Shown here in pieces: positions 41,039 to 62,627 of a stretch of DNA of 64,000 nucleotides (within the stretch, counting starts at the first letter, position 1; each line of letters starts with the position of its first letter). Origin of the DNA: a virus; the IMG/VR virus record IMGVR_UViG_3300030616_000001, positions 1 to 64,000 of that record, one strand, 5' to 3'. The position numbers were made by a program, and so were the translations under genes. Below the pieces are notes generated by a model that did not search any database, was not told the DNA's origin, and saw nothing but the letters and a program-made list of their open reading frames with translations.

Positions 41039-41618
41039 CGTCCCCCTCCAGTTCCTTGACCCGTCCCTGCCACCACCGCCGCAGACAGCCGCGGCACTTG
41101 GTCTTGCCGAAGTCCTTGGGGTGGTGACGGCACTTCGTCTCCCTGTCCACGTGCGTCCCTGTGCCTGGTTCTGCCCGTTGGAAGTGGTCACGTAGGGTTC
41201 CGGTCGGGACCAGGACGCGGACAGGCGGCAGGTCCCCGTCTCGGACCACGCACGGCACCAGGAGTTCCATGTGGTCGGGGCCGCCAGTGAACAGGTCCGG
41301 TCGGATCTCCACCGCCTCCTCCCACACCTCGTCGCACTCCTCGATGTCCTCGAGGGCGCGTTCGAGCTCGGCGTCGTCCACGTCCACCTCGGTGCCCCCG
41401 GGAAGGCCCAGGCGCAGACCCAGGACCCGCTCCCACTGGTCGTCGTTGACCGCGGCGATCACGGTGTCGTTCAGGGTAACGAACGCCTTGCCCGCGAGGG
41501 CGCGGTATGGGTGCTGTGCAATCTCGGTGGTCACGGTCACGTCTCCGTTGTCGTAGCGGCTGTACTCCGCGCCGGTTTCCACATCGCGCATGGTCGTGGA
41601 TTTAGAACGGGTACTCAT
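41025..41618 (-). CDS. Hypothetical protein with C-terminal Cys/His cluster
   Basis: This is a 197-residue protein. The start chosen is ATG with GAGGACGAGC upstream; a GTG 15 bases earlier is possible. The acidic core (VDVDDAELERALEDIEECDEVWEEAV) is followed by a Cys/His cluster (CRHHPKDFGKTKCRGCL), probably metal binding. It overlaps the end of the large terminase. No family recognised. Confidence 0.6.
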   Translation of the reverse strand: MSTRSKSTTMRDVETGAEYSRYDNGDVTVTTEIAQHPYRALAGKAFVTLNDTVIAAVNDDQWERVLGLRLGLPGGTEVDVDDAELERALEDIEECDEVWEEAVEIRPDLFTGGPDHMELLVPCVVRDGDLPPVRVLVPTGTLRDHFQRAEPGTGTHVDRETKCRHHPKDFGKTKCRGCLRRWWQGRVKELEGDDDQA

Positions 41619-43191
41619 GCTCGTCCTCGTCACCGATGTGGATCTCCATTACATCTTCCCCCCCGTCGGCGTCCACGTCAAGGAAGTGCGTCCGTGCAGC
41701 ACCGACCAGCTGCGAAAAGGCGTCCACCATGTCGTCGTGCTTGCCGAACGGGAACTCGATCAGTTCGTCCACGAGGCTGCCGCGGCTGCCGTCGAACAGG
41801 TCGCCGTTCGGGTCCAGGTGGGCCGAGAACACCACCTTGCCCTTTTCCAGCAACGGAGTGGCGCCGAGGAGGCGCATCTGCTTGCTGATCTTGGGCTTGG
41901 TGACCTTGATGTGGCCCTCCATCTCGGGGTGTTCGTTAATGACCCACTCGTCCACGGTGGACAGGCCGATCTTCTCGATCAGGACCAGCCACGGATCGTA
42001 TGTCTGCGCCTCGGCGTGGATCACGTCGGCCAGGGTCTTGACCGACATCCGCTGGTGCCAGGCGTCCACGATGTACAGGACCCCGCGCTCCTGGTCGATC
42101 GCGCCGACGCAGCACCCAGTGTAGTCCTGCTGCTTGCTGGTCTTGGACCGTGGGTTGGGCGTGCCGGCGGGGTCGTAGCTGGTGAAGAACACCAACCGAT
42201 CCTGCTCCACCAACTCGGCGAACCGTTGGTCCTGGCGCAGGTCGCTGAACTCGAACCAGTCCGGTCGGATCAGCGCGGACTCTATGTCGATCGCCTGGTT
42301 GCGGAAGGCCCGGTTGAACTCGATGCTCTGGATCTCGTCGAACCGCATCCGCAGCGCGGCCTCACTCCACTTGTCCGGCCAGATCGCGCCGAAGTTGGCG
42401 TCGATGTCGTACCGCAGCACCTTGTACGTGGTGCCGCCCATGATCTCGTGGGACAGGTCCCCGGGGTGCCACAACGTGCAGATGTACCAGACGCGGCTGT
42501 CCGGCTCGAGGAGGTTGGTCCAGTCCGCCTTCCACGCCTGCTTGATCTGCTCGCGGAGGGCCGGGAAGGTGAGGGCGTTGCGGCGGTCCACCACGTCGTC
42601 GGCGATCAGCAGGTCGGCGCGGCCGCCCGTCGCCGTGGAGGTGATGCCCAGTGCCTCCACCGACGCGTCCCTGTGTCTCGCGGATCGCATCAGGACCAGA
42701 CGGTGCGCGTTCCATGGCGCGTCAGGGTTCGGCCGTAGGTCGGGGAACACCTCCCGGACACGCGGGTTCGTGGTGATGTGCTGGTCGATCTCGAACAGGC
42801 GTTCCTTGGCCCGCCCGTCGCTCGCGCACACCACCTTGGTCCGCAGGTTCGGGTTGTTGCCCAGTTCCCAGATCACGCGGCCCACCACGTTGCTGGTCTT
42901 GGCGTGGTCACGAGGCGCGATCACCATGACCCGCTGATACCGATCCCAGGCCTTATGCCACTCGTCGTGGAACCACTGCTGGGCGTAGGGAAGGCGGCTC
43001 GACTCGTCCAGGAACGCATACTCCATGAACGCCGACGCCGACTTGCGAGCGAGGGCGACGTGGTGGTTGCGAATCGCCACGGCACGCTTGACCAGGCGCT
43101 CCCGGGACGGTGGTCGGATGAACTTGTCCGCGACCAGCCGCGGGAGGTGGCCCACCGGAGGGCGGAAGTCCTTGTGGATCGCGCCGTCCAC
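41602..43191 (-). CDS. terL: Terminase large subunit
   Basis: This 529-residue packaging ATPase-nuclease starts with GTG. The Walker A-like APRDHAKT lies at residues 92-99 and the Walker B LLIADD at 194-199. The C-terminal RNase H-fold nuclease has Asp in FTSYDPAG, the VLIEK region and the final HDDMVDAF, which carry the metal-binding acids. It cuts concatemers and drives DNA into the prohead. It lies between the ParB-like gene and the portal region, the usual head of the structural operon. Confidence 0.95.
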   Translation of the reverse strand: MDGAIHKDFRPPVGHLPRLVADKFIRPPSRERLVKRAVAIRNHHVALARKSASAFMEYAFLDESSRLPYAQQWFHDEWHKAWDRYQRVMVIAPRDHAKTSNVVGRVIWELGNNPNLRTKVVCASDGRAKERLFEIDQHITTNPRVREVFPDLRPNPDAPWNAHRLVLMRSARHRDASVEALGITSTATGGRADLLIADDVVDRRNALTFPALREQIKQAWKADWTNLLEPDSRVWYICTLWHPGDLSHEIMGGTTYKVLRYDIDANFGAIWPDKWSEAALRMRFDEIQSIEFNRAFRNQAIDIESALIRPDWFEFSDLRQDQRFAELVEQDRLVFFTSYDPAGTPNPRSKTSKQQDYTGCCVGAIDQERGVLYIVDAWHQRMSVKTLADVIHAEAQTYDPWLVLIEKIGLSTVDEWVINEHPEMEGHIKVTKPKISKQMRLLGATPLLEKGKVVFSAHLDPNGDLFDGSRGSLVDELIEFPFGKHDDMVDAFSQLVGAARTHFLDVDADGGEDVMEIHIGDEDEHEYPF

Positions 43192-43192
43192 G

Positions 43193-43789
43193 CTACTTCT
43201 TCTTGCCGCTCACCTGGAACTTGTGGCCGCACTCGGGACACGTCGCCTCCACGGTGATCGTCACGTTGGACTTCGCGTCCTTCTTCTCCTGGAGGGCCTT
43301 CAGCTGCTCGTCGTTGGCCTTCTTGAACGCGTTCCAGTCGAAGTCGACCATCTGGGAGAACCCCTCCAGGGTTTCCCGGTCGAACGGCATCGTGGTGTTG
43401 AGGTCGGCCACGTTGAACTCGGCGCCGCTGCCGCTGGTCATCTCCTTGATCAGGACCGCCAGCTTGGCGTCGTCGCGCTTGAACTTCGTCTCGTTCGTCT
43501 CGATGGCGATCCGCCACGCCTGGGAGTCGGTGATCGGGCCAAAGTTGAAGCACACCGCTTTCTTGATCCCCAGGTGGTTGAACGCGGCGAGGCGGTGGTT
43601 CCCGTTGATCACCTCGAAGAACCCCGTGTCCAACTCGCGCACTAGGATGTTCTCCACCTGACCGTTGCGCTTGATGTTGGCGATCAGCTTCTCGGCCTGG
43701 TCCGGGTCCTCCACCTTGTAGTTCCAATCGGCGCCTACGAGCTTGCCCACGGGCAACTCGATCCATCGCGGGTCATTGAGCTTGGCCAT
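43193..43789 (-). CDS. ParB-like N-terminal domain protein with Cys pair
   Basis: This is a 198-residue protein. ELPVGKLVGADWNYKVEDPDQAEKLIANIKRNGQVENILV followed by FEVINGNHRLAAF is the ParB/Srx-type nucleotide-binding fold, in which NGNHR (62-66) replaces the usual GHRR. The C-terminus carries CPECGHKF, one Cys pair of a zinc ribbon. Phage ParB-like proteins near terminases act as nucleases or CTP-binding DNA clamps. It overlaps dpdA by 17 bases and ends just before terL. Confidence 0.75.
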   Translation of the reverse strand: MAKLNDPRWIELPVGKLVGADWNYKVEDPDQAEKLIANIKRNGQVENILVRELDTGFFEVINGNHRLAAFNHLGIKKAVCFNFGPITDSQAWRIAIETNETKFKRDDAKLAVLIKEMTSGSGAEFNVADLNTTMPFDRETLEGFSQMVDFDWNAFKKANDEQLKALQEKKDAKSNVTITVEATCPECGHKFQVSGKKK

Positions 43790-44636
43790 CGCGCATCTCC
43801 TGTTGCGCCGTGTCGGCGCGTGTCTGGTCGTTCCACTCGATCCCGCGCTCGCGCCACATCGACGTGACGGACTCCTGGAGGCGGTGTCGTTTCATCAGCC
43901 ACCGCGTGAACCGCACCTTGCACTTCTCGGCGCCAGCCAGGTCCTCGCGTTGTTCAACTTGGGCGGCGAGCACGGCCTCGACGGTGTTGAGTCCCTTCTC
44001 GGCCAGGTCCCGCAGCTTGTAGGTGCGCCCGTCCTGCATGTGCCACGTCTTGTTGCCCGCCTGGAGGGATCCGGCCGACGAGTCCGCGGAGTAGAACGGG
44101 TAGCGGCGCAGGATCTTCTCGCTGCCCACGCCGAACATATGGATCTTGCGGGTGTCCCGGTACTTGGCCAGGACGCGGGCGTATAGGTCGTCGAGCCAGA
44201 TGATCTTCGCCGCGTCGCTCTTGCCCACCACGCCGCCCAGGCAGAAGAACTCGTACCGCTCGGCCAGTTCCTCGAGCACCGCGATCGGCTCCCCGAAGTG
44301 GTAGGTGGGCAACGGCGCGAACCCCGCCTCCTCCATGACCCGCTGGTTCTCCGCGCTGGCCACCGGGTCGCCGATCACGTCCAGCCCGGCGTACACGTCG
44401 ATCAGGTGGGACCGGTCGGCGATGAACTTCATGTACTCGTCGATGTCGATCTCGATGCCCAGGGTGTTGGCGCTGTGGGCGCCGCTGTCCAGGAAGAAGT
44501 GGAACCTGTCGTCGAGCAGGTCCACGGTGGGCAGGAACCGCTGGGCGTAGACGTAGCTGATCAGGACGTTGGGATACAGCGTCTCGATCACCGCCTCGAG
44601 ATCCTGGCGCTTGATCACGACCTCGAACACCCTCAT
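43773..44636 (-). CDS. dpdA: DpdA-like DNA transglycosylase for 7-deazaguanine insertion
   Basis: This 287-residue protein is a short member of the tRNA-guanine transglycosylase superfamily of the phage DpdA type. DSGAHS (Asp50) corresponds to the family acid-base DSG motif, and YSADSSAG (Asp185) to the nucleophile region. YAGLDVIGDP and FCLGGVVG complete the TIM barrel. The CxCxxC zinc site of tRNA enzymes is not seen. DpdA exchanges guanine in DNA for preQ0 or a derivative, protecting phage DNA from restriction. It is encoded immediately after queE, with ATGA overlap, in a cassette that supplies the base. Confidence 0.85.
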   Translation of the reverse strand: MRVFEVVIKRQDLEAVIETLYPNVLISYVYAQRFLPTVDLLDDRFHFFLDSGAHSANTLGIEIDIDEYMKFIADRSHLIDVYAGLDVIGDPVASAENQRVMEEAGFAPLPTYHFGEPIAVLEELAERYEFFCLGGVVGKSDAAKIIWLDDLYARVLAKYRDTRKIHMFGVGSEKILRRYPFYSADSSAGSLQAGNKTWHMQDGRTYKLRDLAEKGLNTVEAVLAAQVEQREDLAGAEKCKVRFTRWLMKRHRLQESVTSMWRERGIEWNDQTRADTAQQEMRDGQAQ

Positions 44637-45223
44637 GACAGCCCCCATGCCTTGTGCGCCTGGACGTTGAGCCGCCAGGGAATCTCGCTGGTGTTCTCCT
44701 CGATCAGGTGGACCGCCCACCGCACGTTCTCGGGAACCAGGCGGTCCCCGTCGTACGCGGGGGACAGGAAGTAGTTGTCCGCGGCGATCAGTGGCACCGG
44801 GATCTTGCACCCGGCCTCCACGATGTACTTCAACTCGGCGACGGGGCGGCTGAAGTTCTCGATCAGGCGCGACGGGCCGACCTTGGGACTGACCACCACG
44901 TAGTCTATCCCCTCGGGCACGGCAAGCGTGCCGTTGGTTTCGATTGTGAGCATGGCGCCGAGCGCGTGGAGTGCGCGGACCAGAACGTTGTCGACCTGGA
45001 GCGCGGGTTCGCCGCCGCACAGGGACACAACGTCGGCCCCCAACTCCTCGACCTCGTCCAGGATCATCTGGAGGGACATCTCCCTGGCGTTGACGTGCTC
45101 CTTGGTGTCGCAGAACGGGCAGTTGAGGTTGCACCCGCTGAACCGCAGGAACGTGGTTGGGATGCCGATCCTGGCGCCCTCGCCCTGGATCGACCGCACG
45201 ATCTCGTGGACCTTGTACAGCAT
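44633..45223 (-). CDS. queE: QueE, 7-carboxy-7-deazaguanine synthase
   Basis: This 196-residue radical SAM enzyme carries the CxxxCxxC motif as CNLNCPFC (Cys31, 35, 38), which holds the [4Fe-4S] cluster, with GEG (14-16) and GGEP (70-73) for SAM binding. It converts 6-carboxytetrahydropterin to 7-carboxy-7-deazaguanine. The start shares one base with the queC stop (TGATG) and the stop overlaps dpdA (ATGA). Length and motifs are normal for the family. Confidence 0.92.
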   Translation of the reverse strand: MLYKVHEIVRSIQGEGARIGIPTTFLRFSGCNLNCPFCDTKEHVNAREMSLQMILDEVEELGADVVSLCGGEPALQVDNVLVRALHALGAMLTIETNGTLAVPEGIDYVVVSPKVGPSRLIENFSRPVAELKYIVEAGCKIPVPLIAADNYFLSPAYDGDRLVPENVRWAVHLIEENTSEIPWRLNVQAHKAWGLS

Positions 45224-45978
45224 CAGTTGTGCCCCCTCTCGTCCCGGTGCGCCCGGTCGTAGGCCAGTTGCTCCGGGGTCTTGACATTCTGCTCCCCGTC
45301 GTACCAGCCGCCGGCCCACAACGCTTCCTCCCGCTGGCGGCATGAGTCGCACTCGCCGCAGTGGGCGTCGCCGTCCAGGTAGCACGACCACGTGGCGTCG
45401 TAGTCCACGCCCAGCTTGCGCCCCAGGTCCACGATCCTTGCCTTGGGCCAGGTGGCGAACGGAGCACAGATCCGCGGGTGGAACGACGGGTCGGTGCCCT
45501 CCCGGGCCGCACGCTCCATCGCCTCCACGAACTCGAGACGGTCGTCCCAGTAGTTGCCGCTGTCCAGGCCGTTGGCGCCGAGGTAGATGCTGCTGATCCC
45601 GTGGGCCTCGGCGAACCCGACCGCGTAGGCCAGGAAGATCCCGTTGCGGAACGGGACGTAGCTGGCCGGCGTGCCGCCCTCCTCGATCTGGCCGCGACTG
45701 CGCCCCTTCGGAAGCCCCTGGACCGCGCTGGTGTTGGCCTTCAACAGGCCGCACTCCGGGGCCATCCACCCCATGTCCACCCGCACGATCTTGGTGGTGG
45801 CGCCGTACTTCTGCGCGTTGTCCACGGCAACGTCGAGCTCACGCCGCAGCGTCTGTCCGTAGTCGAAGATCAGTGCGACGATCTCCTCCGGGTTGAGCAG
45901 GTGCATGTTCTGCATCCGCGCCAGGCACGTGGTACTGTCGATCCCGCCTGACAGTAGGATCACCGCTCCTCGATTCAT
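45223..45978 (-). CDS. queC: QueC, 7-cyano-7-deazaguanine (preQ0) synthase
   Basis: This 251-residue ATP-dependent enzyme has the PP-loop SGGIDS (10-15) and a zinc site of four Cys near the C-terminus (Cys199, 207, 210 and 213, in CYLDGDAHCGECDSC). It converts 7-carboxy-7-deazaguanine and ammonia to preQ0; some phage versions can stop at the amide. No extra amidotransferase domain is fused. It begins three bases after folE and precedes queE. Confidence 0.93.
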   Translation of the reverse strand: MNRGAVILLSGGIDSTTCLARMQNMHLLNPEEIVALIFDYGQTLRRELDVAVDNAQKYGATTKIVRVDMGWMAPECGLLKANTSAVQGLPKGRSRGQIEEGGTPASYVPFRNGIFLAYAVGFAEAHGISSIYLGANGLDSGNYWDDRLEFVEAMERAAREGTDPSFHPRICAPFATWPKARIVDLGRKLGVDYDATWSCYLDGDAHCGECDSCRQREEALWAGGWYDGEQNVKTPEQLAYDRAHRDERGHN

Positions 45979-45981
45979 CTC

Positions 45982-46560
45982 CTACCCCTCCCGGCCCGCG
46001 AAGGCCATGAACTCGGCCCTGGTGCGCGGGTCCTCGAGGAACCGTCCACGCAGGGCCGTTGTGGTCATCCATGCTTCCCGTTTCTCCACACCCCTCGCCA
46101 CCATGCACAGGTGACGACCACGGACCAGCACGCCCACGCCCAGAGCACCTGCGGTGGACTCCACTACGTCCGCGATCTGGTCGGTCATCCGCTCCTGGAT
46201 CTGGAGGCGGCGGGCGTACACCTCGACGGCACGCGCCAGCTTGGACACCCCCACCACCTTGCCGTTCTTGTCCGGCAGGTAGGCGACATAGACGTGGCCG
46301 TAGAACGGCAGGATGTGGTGCTCGCACGTGGACCAGTATTCGATGGGACCGAGGCACACCATCTGGTTGTAGCTGTCACTGGCGAACGCGGTCTGGAGGA
46401 TCCCCTGGGGCTCCTTGTCGTAGCCGCCGAACAGGTGCTTCCAGGACTTGACCACGCGCTTCGGCGTGTCCTTCAACCCCTCCCGGTCCGGGTCCTCACC
46501 GATGTACTCCAGCATGGTCCGAACCGCGGCGAGCGCGTCTGCTTCTGTCGGCCTGGTCAT
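45982..46560 (-). CDS. folE: FolE, GTP cyclohydrolase I
   Basis: This 192-residue enzyme opens the guanine ring of GTP to give dihydroneopterin triphosphate, the first step to 7-deazaguanines. [14 protein letters not shown] (Cys79, His81, His82) and the later [11 protein letters not shown] (Cys152) provide zinc ligands and active-site residues. The core [25 protein letters not shown] is typical. Its ATG overlaps the queD stop (ATGA). Confidence 0.94.
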
Positions 46561-47045
46561 TGGATCGCCTCCTCGTAGTCCGCCTCCCACGTGGCGCACG
46601 ACTTCTCCGTCTCCCACACGTCCACCCTGATCACGTCCGCGCCGACCACCGGGATCTCGGCCAGGCCCCGGGCGATCATCGACGCGAGCAGGGTGGCCAT
46701 GTTCTCGGCGGTGGGCATGTTGATCATCACCACGACCCGCAGGTCCAGGTCCGCGGCACGGAGCACCTCCAGGAGCGGATCCTGCTCCCACAGGATCACG
46801 GCGTGGTCCCACGGCACCGTGTCCGCGCCGCACCACTTCCCCTCGTCCAGGATCCCGCGCACCACCGTGGACAGGTCCTTGAAGTCGGCGACCATGCCGG
46901 TGGAGGGACCGACGCGGCGCAACTCGGCCCCCTCGAGATGGGCGACGACGCGGTAGCTGTGGCCGTGCAGGTTGCGGCATCCACCCTCGTGGAGTGGCAG
47001 TCGGTGTGCCGCCTCGAATTTGAATTCCTTGCTGATACTGTGCAT
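46557..47045 (-). CDS. queD: QueD, 6-carboxytetrahydropterin synthase
   Basis: This 162-residue enzyme has the family motif set: FEAAHRLP (His14), CRNLHGHSY (Cys23 nucleophile; His27 and His29 zinc ligands), DFKDL and PTAENMA. It converts the FolE product to 6-carboxytetrahydropterin, the QueE substrate. It is the first gene of the cassette and follows a zinc-ribbon gene without a gap. Confidence 0.93.
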
Positions 47046-57785: not shown

Positions 57786-58036
57786 CGTCGCCTCCGCCGG
57801 CCCCGCTCTGGCCGCACCTTGATCCGCCACTGGTCCGGGGTGGTCCCCTCACGCTTACGCAGCCGGTCCGTGAGGTCCCTTTCGGCTTCCTCCCTCCCCA
57901 CCCCTGCCGCGTCTATACGGACGTTGCAGTGGACGCACCGGGTGAGCAGGTACACAAGACCGGCCTCCCGTTGTTTCGCCGTGGTCGTCTCCCCCACCAC
58001 GATGGGCCGACCACAGAATGGACAGCGTGCGTTCAT
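57782..58036 (-). CDS. Small zinc-ribbon protein
   Basis: This is an 84-residue protein. CPFCGRPIVVGE (5-16) and CVHCNVRIDA (34-43) form one zinc site, followed by a charged helix (GREEAERDLTDRLRKRE) and an Arg-rich end. It is coupled by ATGA overlap to the RuvC-like gene and may assist it. Confidence 0.62.
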   Translation of the reverse strand: MNARCPFCGRPIVVGETTTAKQREAGLVYLLTRCVHCNVRIDAAGVGREEAERDLTDRLRKREGTTPDQWRIKVRPERGRRRRR

Positions 58037-58545
58037 CGTTTGCGGCGGAGGTTGCGATAGGCCTCCCGGATCGCGTGGTAGCGGCCGATCAGTGCCGCGT
58101 CCGCCGCGTCCTCCCCGACCTTCTGATCCCACAGGCCGCGCGTCTTCATGGCGCATCTGCGCTTGACCTCCTTGCTGTCGATCTTCGCGGTCCCAAGCTC
58201 CGCGGTCTGCCATGTCTGGGGGTTGATCCAGACCACCGGAATGCCGCGGCTGCGGAACGCCTCCTCCCACCGACCGCCGTTGCGGGCCAGCTTCTTGAGG
58301 GTGTTGACGTTGAGGCCCAGGAATTGGTCCTCGATGGCCGCACAAACGATGGTATGATCGAACCGACCGACGGACTCGATCACGTTGCCCACGACGGCGT
58401 GCGGCGTGTTGGCCGCCAGGTCCTTCTTCGTCCCAGGCTTGGGCCACTGCACCGCGTCGTGCAGCAGCAGCTTGGGGTTCGGATCCACCGTAACGACCGC
58501 CCACCCCGACCGCGATCCGGGGTCGATTCCCATGATGCAATCCAT
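58033..58545 (-). CDS. RuvC-like Holliday junction resolvase
   Basis: This is a 170-residue protein. MGIDPGSRSGWAVV (Asp8), AAIEDQF (Glu72) and GEDAADAALIGRY (Asp146, Asp149) reproduce the RuvC-family RNase H-fold site, which binds two metals and resolves branched DNA before packaging. Several starts are possible (GTG and two ATG); the chosen one lies just after the TTGTGGCCACAA palindrome, which suggests that the gene starts a new transcription unit. Upstream spacing is 54 bases. Confidence 0.82.
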   Translation of the reverse strand: MDCIMGIDPGSRSGWAVVTVDPNPKLLLHDAVQWPKPGTKKDLAANTPHAVVGNVIESVGRFDHTIVCAAIEDQFLGLNVNTLKKLARNGGRWEEAFRSRGIPVVWINPQTWQTAELGTAKIDSKEVKRRCAMKTRGLWDQKVGEDAADAALIGRYHAIREAYRNLRRKR

Positions 58546-58563
58546 GTGGATCACGGTAGCAAG

Positions 58564-61623: not shown

Positions 61624-61954
61624 TGTCGGCCTCGCTGGCGCGGAGATAGAAGAACCCCTCGAGGCGCGGCTCGTTGGCCATCAGCATCCGCGAGTAGAAC
61701 GGTTTGTGGTTGTTGTTGAGCTTGAACGGATCCGCGGAATCGGTGTCCATCGCACGGTGCCAGCGCAGAACCTCGAACAGGCCCGCGATCCCGTAGTGCT
61801 TGAACCCACGGTCCACGAGATCCAGGGCAAGGCGCCGCAGTTCCCGGTAGACCCACGGGTTGTCCCGGTGGAACTGGCGGAACGCCTTCCCCATGTCGGA
61901 CTCGTCGTCCCGTGTCGCCGCGTCGAGCTCGGGCAGCGTCATCTGGTCATCCAT
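61616..61954 (-). CDS. Conserved phage hypothetical protein
   Basis: This 112-residue protein (KAFRQFHRDNPWVYRELRRLALDLVDRGF, HYGIAGLFEVLRWH, FKLNNNHKPFYSRMLMANEPRLEGFFYLR) has a pattern I associate with small proteins of many phages and prophages. It overlaps the methyltransferase gene by eight bases. Function unknown; a role in DNA metabolism is suggested only by neighbours. Confidence 0.68.
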   Translation of the reverse strand: MDDQMTLPELDAATRDDESDMGKAFRQFHRDNPWVYRELRRLALDLVDRGFKHYGIAGLFEVLRWHRAMDTDSADPFKLNNNHKPFYSRMLMANEPRLEGFFYLRASEADNG

Positions 61955-62627
61955 CGGCGTCCTCCTTCTCGATCCGCACTCGCGGTTTCGCCTCCTCCTC
62001 TGTCATGAGTGGCTTGTTGTCGATCCAGTGGATCCTGGTCTGGCCCTCCCACTTGCGGCGCATCTCGTCCAACGCCGCACCGACCCAGAAGATGAAGCAG
62101 TATTCCTGGGCCATGTCTGTCTTGCCGTCCCCGGTGAACGAGGGCCGGGCCGTGAGGATCCACACCTCCGCCGGCGGCCGCTCCAGGTACAACTTGCTGC
62201 GATCCTGGGTGCCCAGGAACGCCATCTTGGTGAGGAACGCCGCCGCACCGTAGGGGCACAGAAGTTCCAGGGATCGCCGGATCACCGACTCGCCGATGCG
62301 GAACGGGGGGTTCGTTGCGATCACGTCGAACCGCGGCTGGTCCCACCACACCTCGTCGAACTCGGCGGCCGATGTCTCCCTGTAGAGGTGATCGGGATCC
62401 TGATCCCGCCACAGAGGCGGGTCCACGGGCCGCACGTCGTAGCCGTGTGGACGCAGGCCCATCTCACGACCGGCCGACGCGAAAGGCGCCGTGTCGCCGC
62501 AGCACGGTTCCAAGATCCTGGCCAGATGGTTGTCGCTGATCGCCGCCAACTCGATGGCGTGCCGTACCGCCCACCTGGCCAGGCCAGTGTGGGTGCCGTA
62601 GTTGTCGAAGTCTCGTCGCTTGCCCAT
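61947..62627 (-). CDS. SAM-dependent DNA methyltransferase (NPPF type)
   Basis: This is a 226-residue protein. LEPCCGD (39-45) is motif I for SAM binding, Asp64 in GYD probably motif II, and TNPPF (105-109) is the catalytic motif IV of N6-adenine (or N4-cytosine) methyltransferases. A later region (AQEYCFIFWVGAAL) completes the fold. No endonuclease gene is adjacent, so it is an orphan methyltransferase. Such phage enzymes guard phage DNA or mark it. TAGGAGGCACCG precedes the ATG. Confidence 0.82.
   Translation of the reverse strand: MGKRRDFDNYGTHTGLARWAVRHAIELAAISDNHLARILEPCCGDTAPFASAGREMGLRPHGYDVRPVDPPLWRDQDPDHLYRETSAAEFDEVWWDQPRFDVIATNPPFRIGESVIRRSLELLCPYGAAAFLTKMAFLGTQDRSKLYLERPPAEVWILTARPSFTGDGKTDMAQEYCFIFWVGAALDEMRRKWEGQTRIHWIDNKPLMTEEEAKPRVRIEKEDADG

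Follow-up and report, generated by a model that had tools for sequence, protein, structure and literature searches.

The record IMGVR_UViG_3300030616_000001 comprises 94,958 bases and may be incomplete; the window analysed here is its bases 1-64,000, and all predicted genes of the window lie on the minus strand. Six consecutive genes on this strand form a compact cassette. They encode, in order of transcription, the 162-residue 6-carboxytetrahydropterin synthase QueD (46557-47045; Pfam PTPS, 5.8e-26; PHROG 2389; QueD relatives in the PDB), the 192-residue GTP cyclohydrolase I FolE (45982-46560; Pfam GTP_cyclohydroI, 7e-66; PDB code 1wm9, 6.8e-49), a variant 7-cyano-7-deazaguanine synthase, QueC, of 251 residues (45223-45978; Pfam QueC, 1.8e-49; PDB code 2pg3), a short 7-carboxy-7-deazaguanine synthase, QueE, of 196 residues (44633-45223; Radical_SAM, 9.6e-15; PHROG 2076, 1e-31; QueE of PDB code 4njg, 5.3e-20), the 287-residue DNA-guanine transglycosylase DpdA (43773-44636; identified by its PHROG family, alignment, fold match and tree position) and a ParB-like protein of 198 residues (43193-43789; PHROG 723, 9.1e-21; ParB/Noc fold). 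The gene for the terminase large subunit (41602-43191; PHROG 38, 3.9e-72), which is outside the pathway, is the immediate downstream neighbour.

The junctions between these genes are tight. The folE and queD genes overlap by 4 bases, queC and folE are separated by 3, queE and queC overlap by 1 and dpdA and queE by 4, with alternative dpdA starts possible at 44648 or 44630. The ParB-like gene overlaps dpdA by 17 bases, such that the dpdA stop codon falls within its start and its own AGGAG ribosome site lies inside dpdA. Gene order and spacing are therefore exactly as in the original prediction, which described a complete cassette of five adjacent genes; the five are indeed intact, but the sixth, overlapping gene had been missed. 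The active-site motifs listed there are also present in all five enzymes, whose families are backed by Pfam or PHROG matches, and include LHGHS in QueD, CEHH and HLC in FolE, and CNLNCPFC and GGEP in QueE.

The same six genes and their neighbours recur in two other IMG/VR contigs at 92-100% protein identity. Comparison of the window with these contigs gave dN/dS values of 0-0.29, showing all six genes to be under purifying selection, and the ParB-like gene differed from its close relatives by eight synonymous and no amino-acid changes. Thus, the cassette reflects neither chance nor decay. Although the record still avoids restriction-type hexamers (see below), as might be expected if the genes were a decaying remnant without activity, the open frames, the retained catalytic residues, the low dN/dS and the occurrence of the same cassette in separate samples make such a remnant scarcely credible. 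Major capsid and terminase matches all came from phages with unrelated hosts and stayed below 40% identity, and a close-relative scan revealed no DpdA relative in cellular genomes; no host is therefore proposed. No tRNA genes or Rfam families were detected in the 64-kb window.

DpdA has no Pfam match and was assigned through PHROG 887 (1.1e-41), the phage DpdA family, which carries the database label "queuine tRNA-ribosyltransferase". Its catalytic core aligns with those of 9g, CAjan and Rosebush-type DpdA, with D50, D86, H113, H166 and D185 invariant. Asp-50, located in the D50-SG motif, corresponds to Asp-72 of the 9g enzyme, Asp-185 to Asp-215, and His-166 to His-196, which DpdA2 characteristically lacks (PMC6884629). 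The protein thus combines the two catalytic aspartates, the histidine at 9g position 196 and the TGT-like fold that define the first phage DpdA family. It contains only two cysteines, Cys-132 and Cys-239, and lacks the Cys3-His zinc site of TGT, as well as the near-invariant Trp that follows DSS. In the DpdA tree it forms a very deep branch, with a path of >6 to the nearest non-sister. A structure-based search, which had been named originally as a check on this protein, matched the model (pLDDT 73, a moderate confidence) to archaeal TGT (PDB code 1iq8), the bacterial DNA-guanine transglycosylase DpdA (PDB code 7UI4) and bacterial TGT with a probability of 1.00 and a best E-value of 7e-5. The DpdA structure was recovered, but so were tRNA enzymes, and the predicted fold alone does not separate the two activities. 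The family profile searched against the PDB gave 7UI4 as its sole match, which was weak (E = 0.16). Assignment of DNA as the substrate relies instead on the sequence grouping with phage DpdA of proven DNA product (9g, CAjan and Rosebush), the presence of the histidine, the lack of a zinc site and the partner gene.

An enzyme of this family could in principle serve tRNA, with the cassette boosting a queuosine precursor for host tRNA rather than modifying DNA. The database family name would fit such a role, and phages without dpdA may indeed boost queuosine precursor (PMC6884629). However, the record has no QueF, and DpdA has only two cysteines, no tRNA-enzyme zinc site, a sequence that aligns with those of phage DpdA of demonstrated activity on DNA, and a coupled gene of the ParB type. 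A tRNA function is consequently regarded as highly improbable.

The ParB-like protein is proposed to be a DpdB-like partner of DpdA, by analogy with bacterial systems in which DpdB, a ParB-like ATPase, is used for base insertion and is dispensable in some clusters (PMC12839542). As with DpdB, it is a ParB-superfamily protein encoded alongside dpdA, while PADLOC returned no DpdB match. Its model (pLDDT 72) retrieved ParB, Noc and sulfiredoxin folds with Foldseek, and similar ParB domains show matches to the DNA methyltransferase family PHROG 498 as well. ParB likewise adjoins dpdA in some ten further lineages, among them phages of Mycobacterium, Gordonia, Rhodococcus, Arthrobacter and Cellulophaga, and most of the pairs overlap; the ParB beside dpdA in phage CRB2 has already been suggested to be a dpdB homolog (PMC6392294). 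Adjacency alone is no proof of a role, and some of the carriers are related through common descent. An independent partition or packaging gene, simply placed between dpdA and the terminase, would also abut the terminase gene as observed, and in phages without a neighbouring dpdA, ParB-like genes adjoin ABC-type ATPases. Against this, Finch, Sonali, Mufasa8 and Cellulophaga phi47:1 display ParB next to dpdA without a terminase gene in the retrieved locus, each such genome has one sole PHROG 723 gene, next to dpdA, most pairs overlap, and related ParB domains match a DNA methyltransferase family. Independence of the ParB-like gene is possible but rather unlikely.

Neighbouring genes were typed with profiles in 103 dpdA loci, drawn from annotated phages and a scan of viral contigs. 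A sliding clamp is encoded within 2.5 kb of dpdA, without ParB, in 83 of the 103 loci, while in 13 ParB is found at most 800 bases from dpdA and no clamp gene lies at such a short distance; at the Knocker locus ParB lies 1.2 kb from dpdA. Searches of whole records with PHROG 723 gave a single ParB, adjoining dpdA, in each of 11 of the 12 ParB-type records searched; the remaining one, L008, encodes a ParB-like protein not recognised by the profile. Of 27 other DpdA records, none contained a PHROG 723 gene. Of 13 ParB-type records, 12, including the window's own, lack the clamp family, and Cellulophaga phi47:1 alone encodes both. DpdA phages thus have either ParB or a sliding clamp near dpdA, and almost never the two together. 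Phages with ParB group together in the DpdA tree, where the state changes four times; a supported clade is made up of 39 rows that lack ParB and nearly all have a clamp. The association is therefore real but reflects few independent events, and several branches are long. The clamp near dpdA may merely belong to a replication block. No sliding clamp was detected in the 94,958-base record despite its genes for RuvC (58033-58554), DnaB helicase and RecT (beyond the window, L002:9570-11039 and L002:12227-13465), all on the minus strand. The division into ParB-coupled and clamp-coupled enzymes makes it testable whether DpdA requires a DNA-loading partner.

Together, these genes very probably constitute a six-gene phage operon for post-replicative exchange of DNA bases, in which ParB would help DpdA and the product would block restriction in part. 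We infer from the enzyme families that FolE, QueD and QueE would convert GTP to 7-carboxy-7-deazaguanine, which QueC would amidate to ADG and, most likely, further to preQ0. DpdA would then swap guanine at certain positions of the phage DNA for the deazaguanine, and the ParB-like protein may assist it on DNA through loading, targeting or nucleotide-driven remodelling, as described for DpdB. A route from GTP to a 7-deazaguanine in DNA, as originally predicted, remains the best explanation in view of the DpdA grouping, although the variant QueC renders the end product less sure. Families of QueF, GATase, ArcS, DpdC-like proteins and preQ0 transporters were all absent from the 94,958-base record. 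The lack of amidotransferase, ArcS and QueF places the system in group 2 of Hutinet 2019, which combines DpdA with a preQ0 pathway without amidotransferase (PMC6884629). In two phages, Rosebush and CAjan, dPreQ0 replaces ~28-32% of G, dpdA being needed in CAjan, and the modification is effective against a subset of restriction enzymes (PMC6884629). By comparison, the product here would most likely be dPreQ0 at a fraction of the guanines, protecting against part of the host restriction enzymes. The full pathway had also been taken to mean that the phage does not rely on host queuosine precursors. Such independence is plausible, but the step is weak: a full pathway is usual, found in 87 of the 103 related dpdA loci, including those of E. 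coli phages whose host makes preQ0, so completeness alone does not indicate that the host lacks the precursor.

The identity of the base depends on QueC. The PP-loop and four cysteines noted in the original prediction are present, as SGGIDS (Ser-10 to Ser-15) and the zinc ligands Cys-199, Cys-207, Cys-210 and Cys-213, and VPxRN (Val-108 to Asn-112) is also conserved, but a departure from two of the five canonical QueC motifs had been overlooked. Canonical QueC (cluster 1 of PMC13329287) displays complete YxQxHxxE and YPDC motifs, which here read YGQTLRRE and YWDD (residues 143-146). In the published model of QueC, both motifs lie at the entrance to the substrate pocket (PMC13329287). Residues Tyr-40, Arg-111, Tyr-143 and Tyr-200 are retained and correspond to E. 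coli Tyr-35, Arg-99, Tyr-131 and Tyr-189, which mutagenesis has identified as essential to the formation of preQ0 (PMC13329287). Plain QueC combines His at position 44 with YPDC and Gat-QueC combines Ala with YPDN, whereas the window protein has Leu-44 and YWDD. Of 60 phage QueC domains that retain the four cysteines, not counting that of the window, 29 have H44/C146, 29 A44/N146 and 2 L44/D146; the last state is thus found in the window, L004 and L008. The A/N group consists of Gat-QueC proteins, of which the 9g member makes dG+; the 251-residue QueC described here has no fused glutamine amidotransferase domain. In bacterial QueC, Pro occupies position 144 in 80 of 80 proteins compared and Cys position 146 in 78 of 80. 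A search of 2.9 million viral contigs for further YWDD QueC added none to the three contigs known before. YWDD is unchanged between QueC proteins that share just 52% identity, which indicates that it is selected. The window QueC therefore represents a third pocket type, for which the predicted product is less certain.

Since QueC departs at two signature positions, dPreQ0 is likely rather than certain, with dADG as its main rival. A variant QueC that stops at 7-amido-7-deazaguanine or another amide would leave dADG or a new base in the DNA, and the three clean states at pocket positions 44 and 146 among phages, the location of both altered motifs at the pocket mouth in the published model and the selection acting on YWDD are compatible with this. 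Nevertheless, the equivalents of the four essential E. coli residues and the base-reading Asp are retained, and the H and C positions are not among the essential residues reported in the text of PMC13329287, rendering an amide end product unlikely. The broader combination of a base other than preQ0, made through the third pocket type, with a DpdA that depends on ParB in place of the clamp, appears quite unlikely. With their three states, QueC positions 44 and 146 provide a rule for predicting from sequence the base that a phage makes.

Expected hexamer counts for the 94,958-base record were obtained with codon-preserving shuffles. Several hexamers are absent, namely GGTCTC/GAGACC (0 versus 70 expected), GGGCCC (0 versus 52), AGGTCT/AGACCT (0 versus 38), TCCGGA (0 versus 32) and AGATCT (0 versus 17), and GCGCGC is rare (2 versus 80). 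AGCGCT, AGAGCT, GGTACC, GGGCTC and AGGGCT are also absent or almost so, with 17-80 expected each. Counts below a quarter of the expectation were observed for 12 of 36 palindromic hexamers versus 27 of 1,416 others, and no degenerate motif uniting the avoided words was apparent by eye in the hexamer tables. A close relative displays a like avoidance. This pattern fits strong past or present restriction of the lineage beside base modification, and the complete absence of restriction-type hexamers argues that any protection by the cassette is incomplete. Carriage of the pathway need not, therefore, free a phage from restriction pressure. Separately, GATC is enriched (1,121 sites in the record; 788 in the window versus 356 in shuffles), and the Asp codon GAT accounts for 31% before C versus 5-9% before other bases, so the GATC word itself seems favoured. 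A 226-residue protein (61947-62627, minus strand) without a Pfam match displays, by eye, a methyltransferase-like SAM motif, EPCCGD, and is a possible second DNA modification enzyme. At 66587-67429 of the record (L002:2587-3429), the minus strand also encodes a DUF5131 protein (E = 1.5e-22) that begins with a Cys-rich stretch.

Known systems resemble the cassette to different degrees. Bacterial Dpd islands (DpdA, DpdB and DpdC) likewise pair a transglycosylase with a ParB-like protein acting on DNA; however, bacterial DpdA falls into clusters separate from the phage enzymes (PMC6884629), and no DpdC-like family was found in the present record. ParB-dpdA-queD-queE-folE cassettes in which no queC was detected in the locus were observed at L017:202-4316, L062, L068 and L030:5932-7387; these may use a substrate of QueC, or a derivative, as their base. 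The cassettes of Mufasa8 (L014:4554-4961) and Knocker (L020:1310-1702) contain a second short "GTP cyclohydrolase" gene besides folE. The contig IMGVR_UViG_3300036401_000407 (L008) has ParB-dpdA-queD-queC-queE-folE near the terminase and represents the one further lineage in which a YWDD QueC was found, but this protein is 52% identical to that of the window, the gene order differs and there is no comparable hexamer avoidance. CAjan and 9g (Queuovirinae) encode the same enzymes, with 39-40% identity in the central region of DpdA, which has been shown to be required for the base. Unlike the window, they have no ParB and dpdA lies beside the sliding clamp and DNA polymerase; 9g, in addition, has Gat-QueC and makes dG+. 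Rosebush-type phages (Bclasvirinae; Godines and Quesadilla) share ParB, dpdA, queC, queD, queE and folE with short overlaps, a cassette adjoining the terminase and the absence of amidotransferase, and dPreQ0 has been proven in Rosebush DNA (PMC6884629). They differ from the window, where the order is queD-folE-queC-queE-dpdA-parB, DpdA is about 25% identical to theirs, QueC has L44/YWDD and the 95-kb genome has a baseplate J gene. Judged by its genes, the system is of an already known kind, that of the Rosebush/CAjan group of Hutinet 2019, and the cassette represents a new, deeply diverging branch among the phage 7-deazaguanine pathways described so far.
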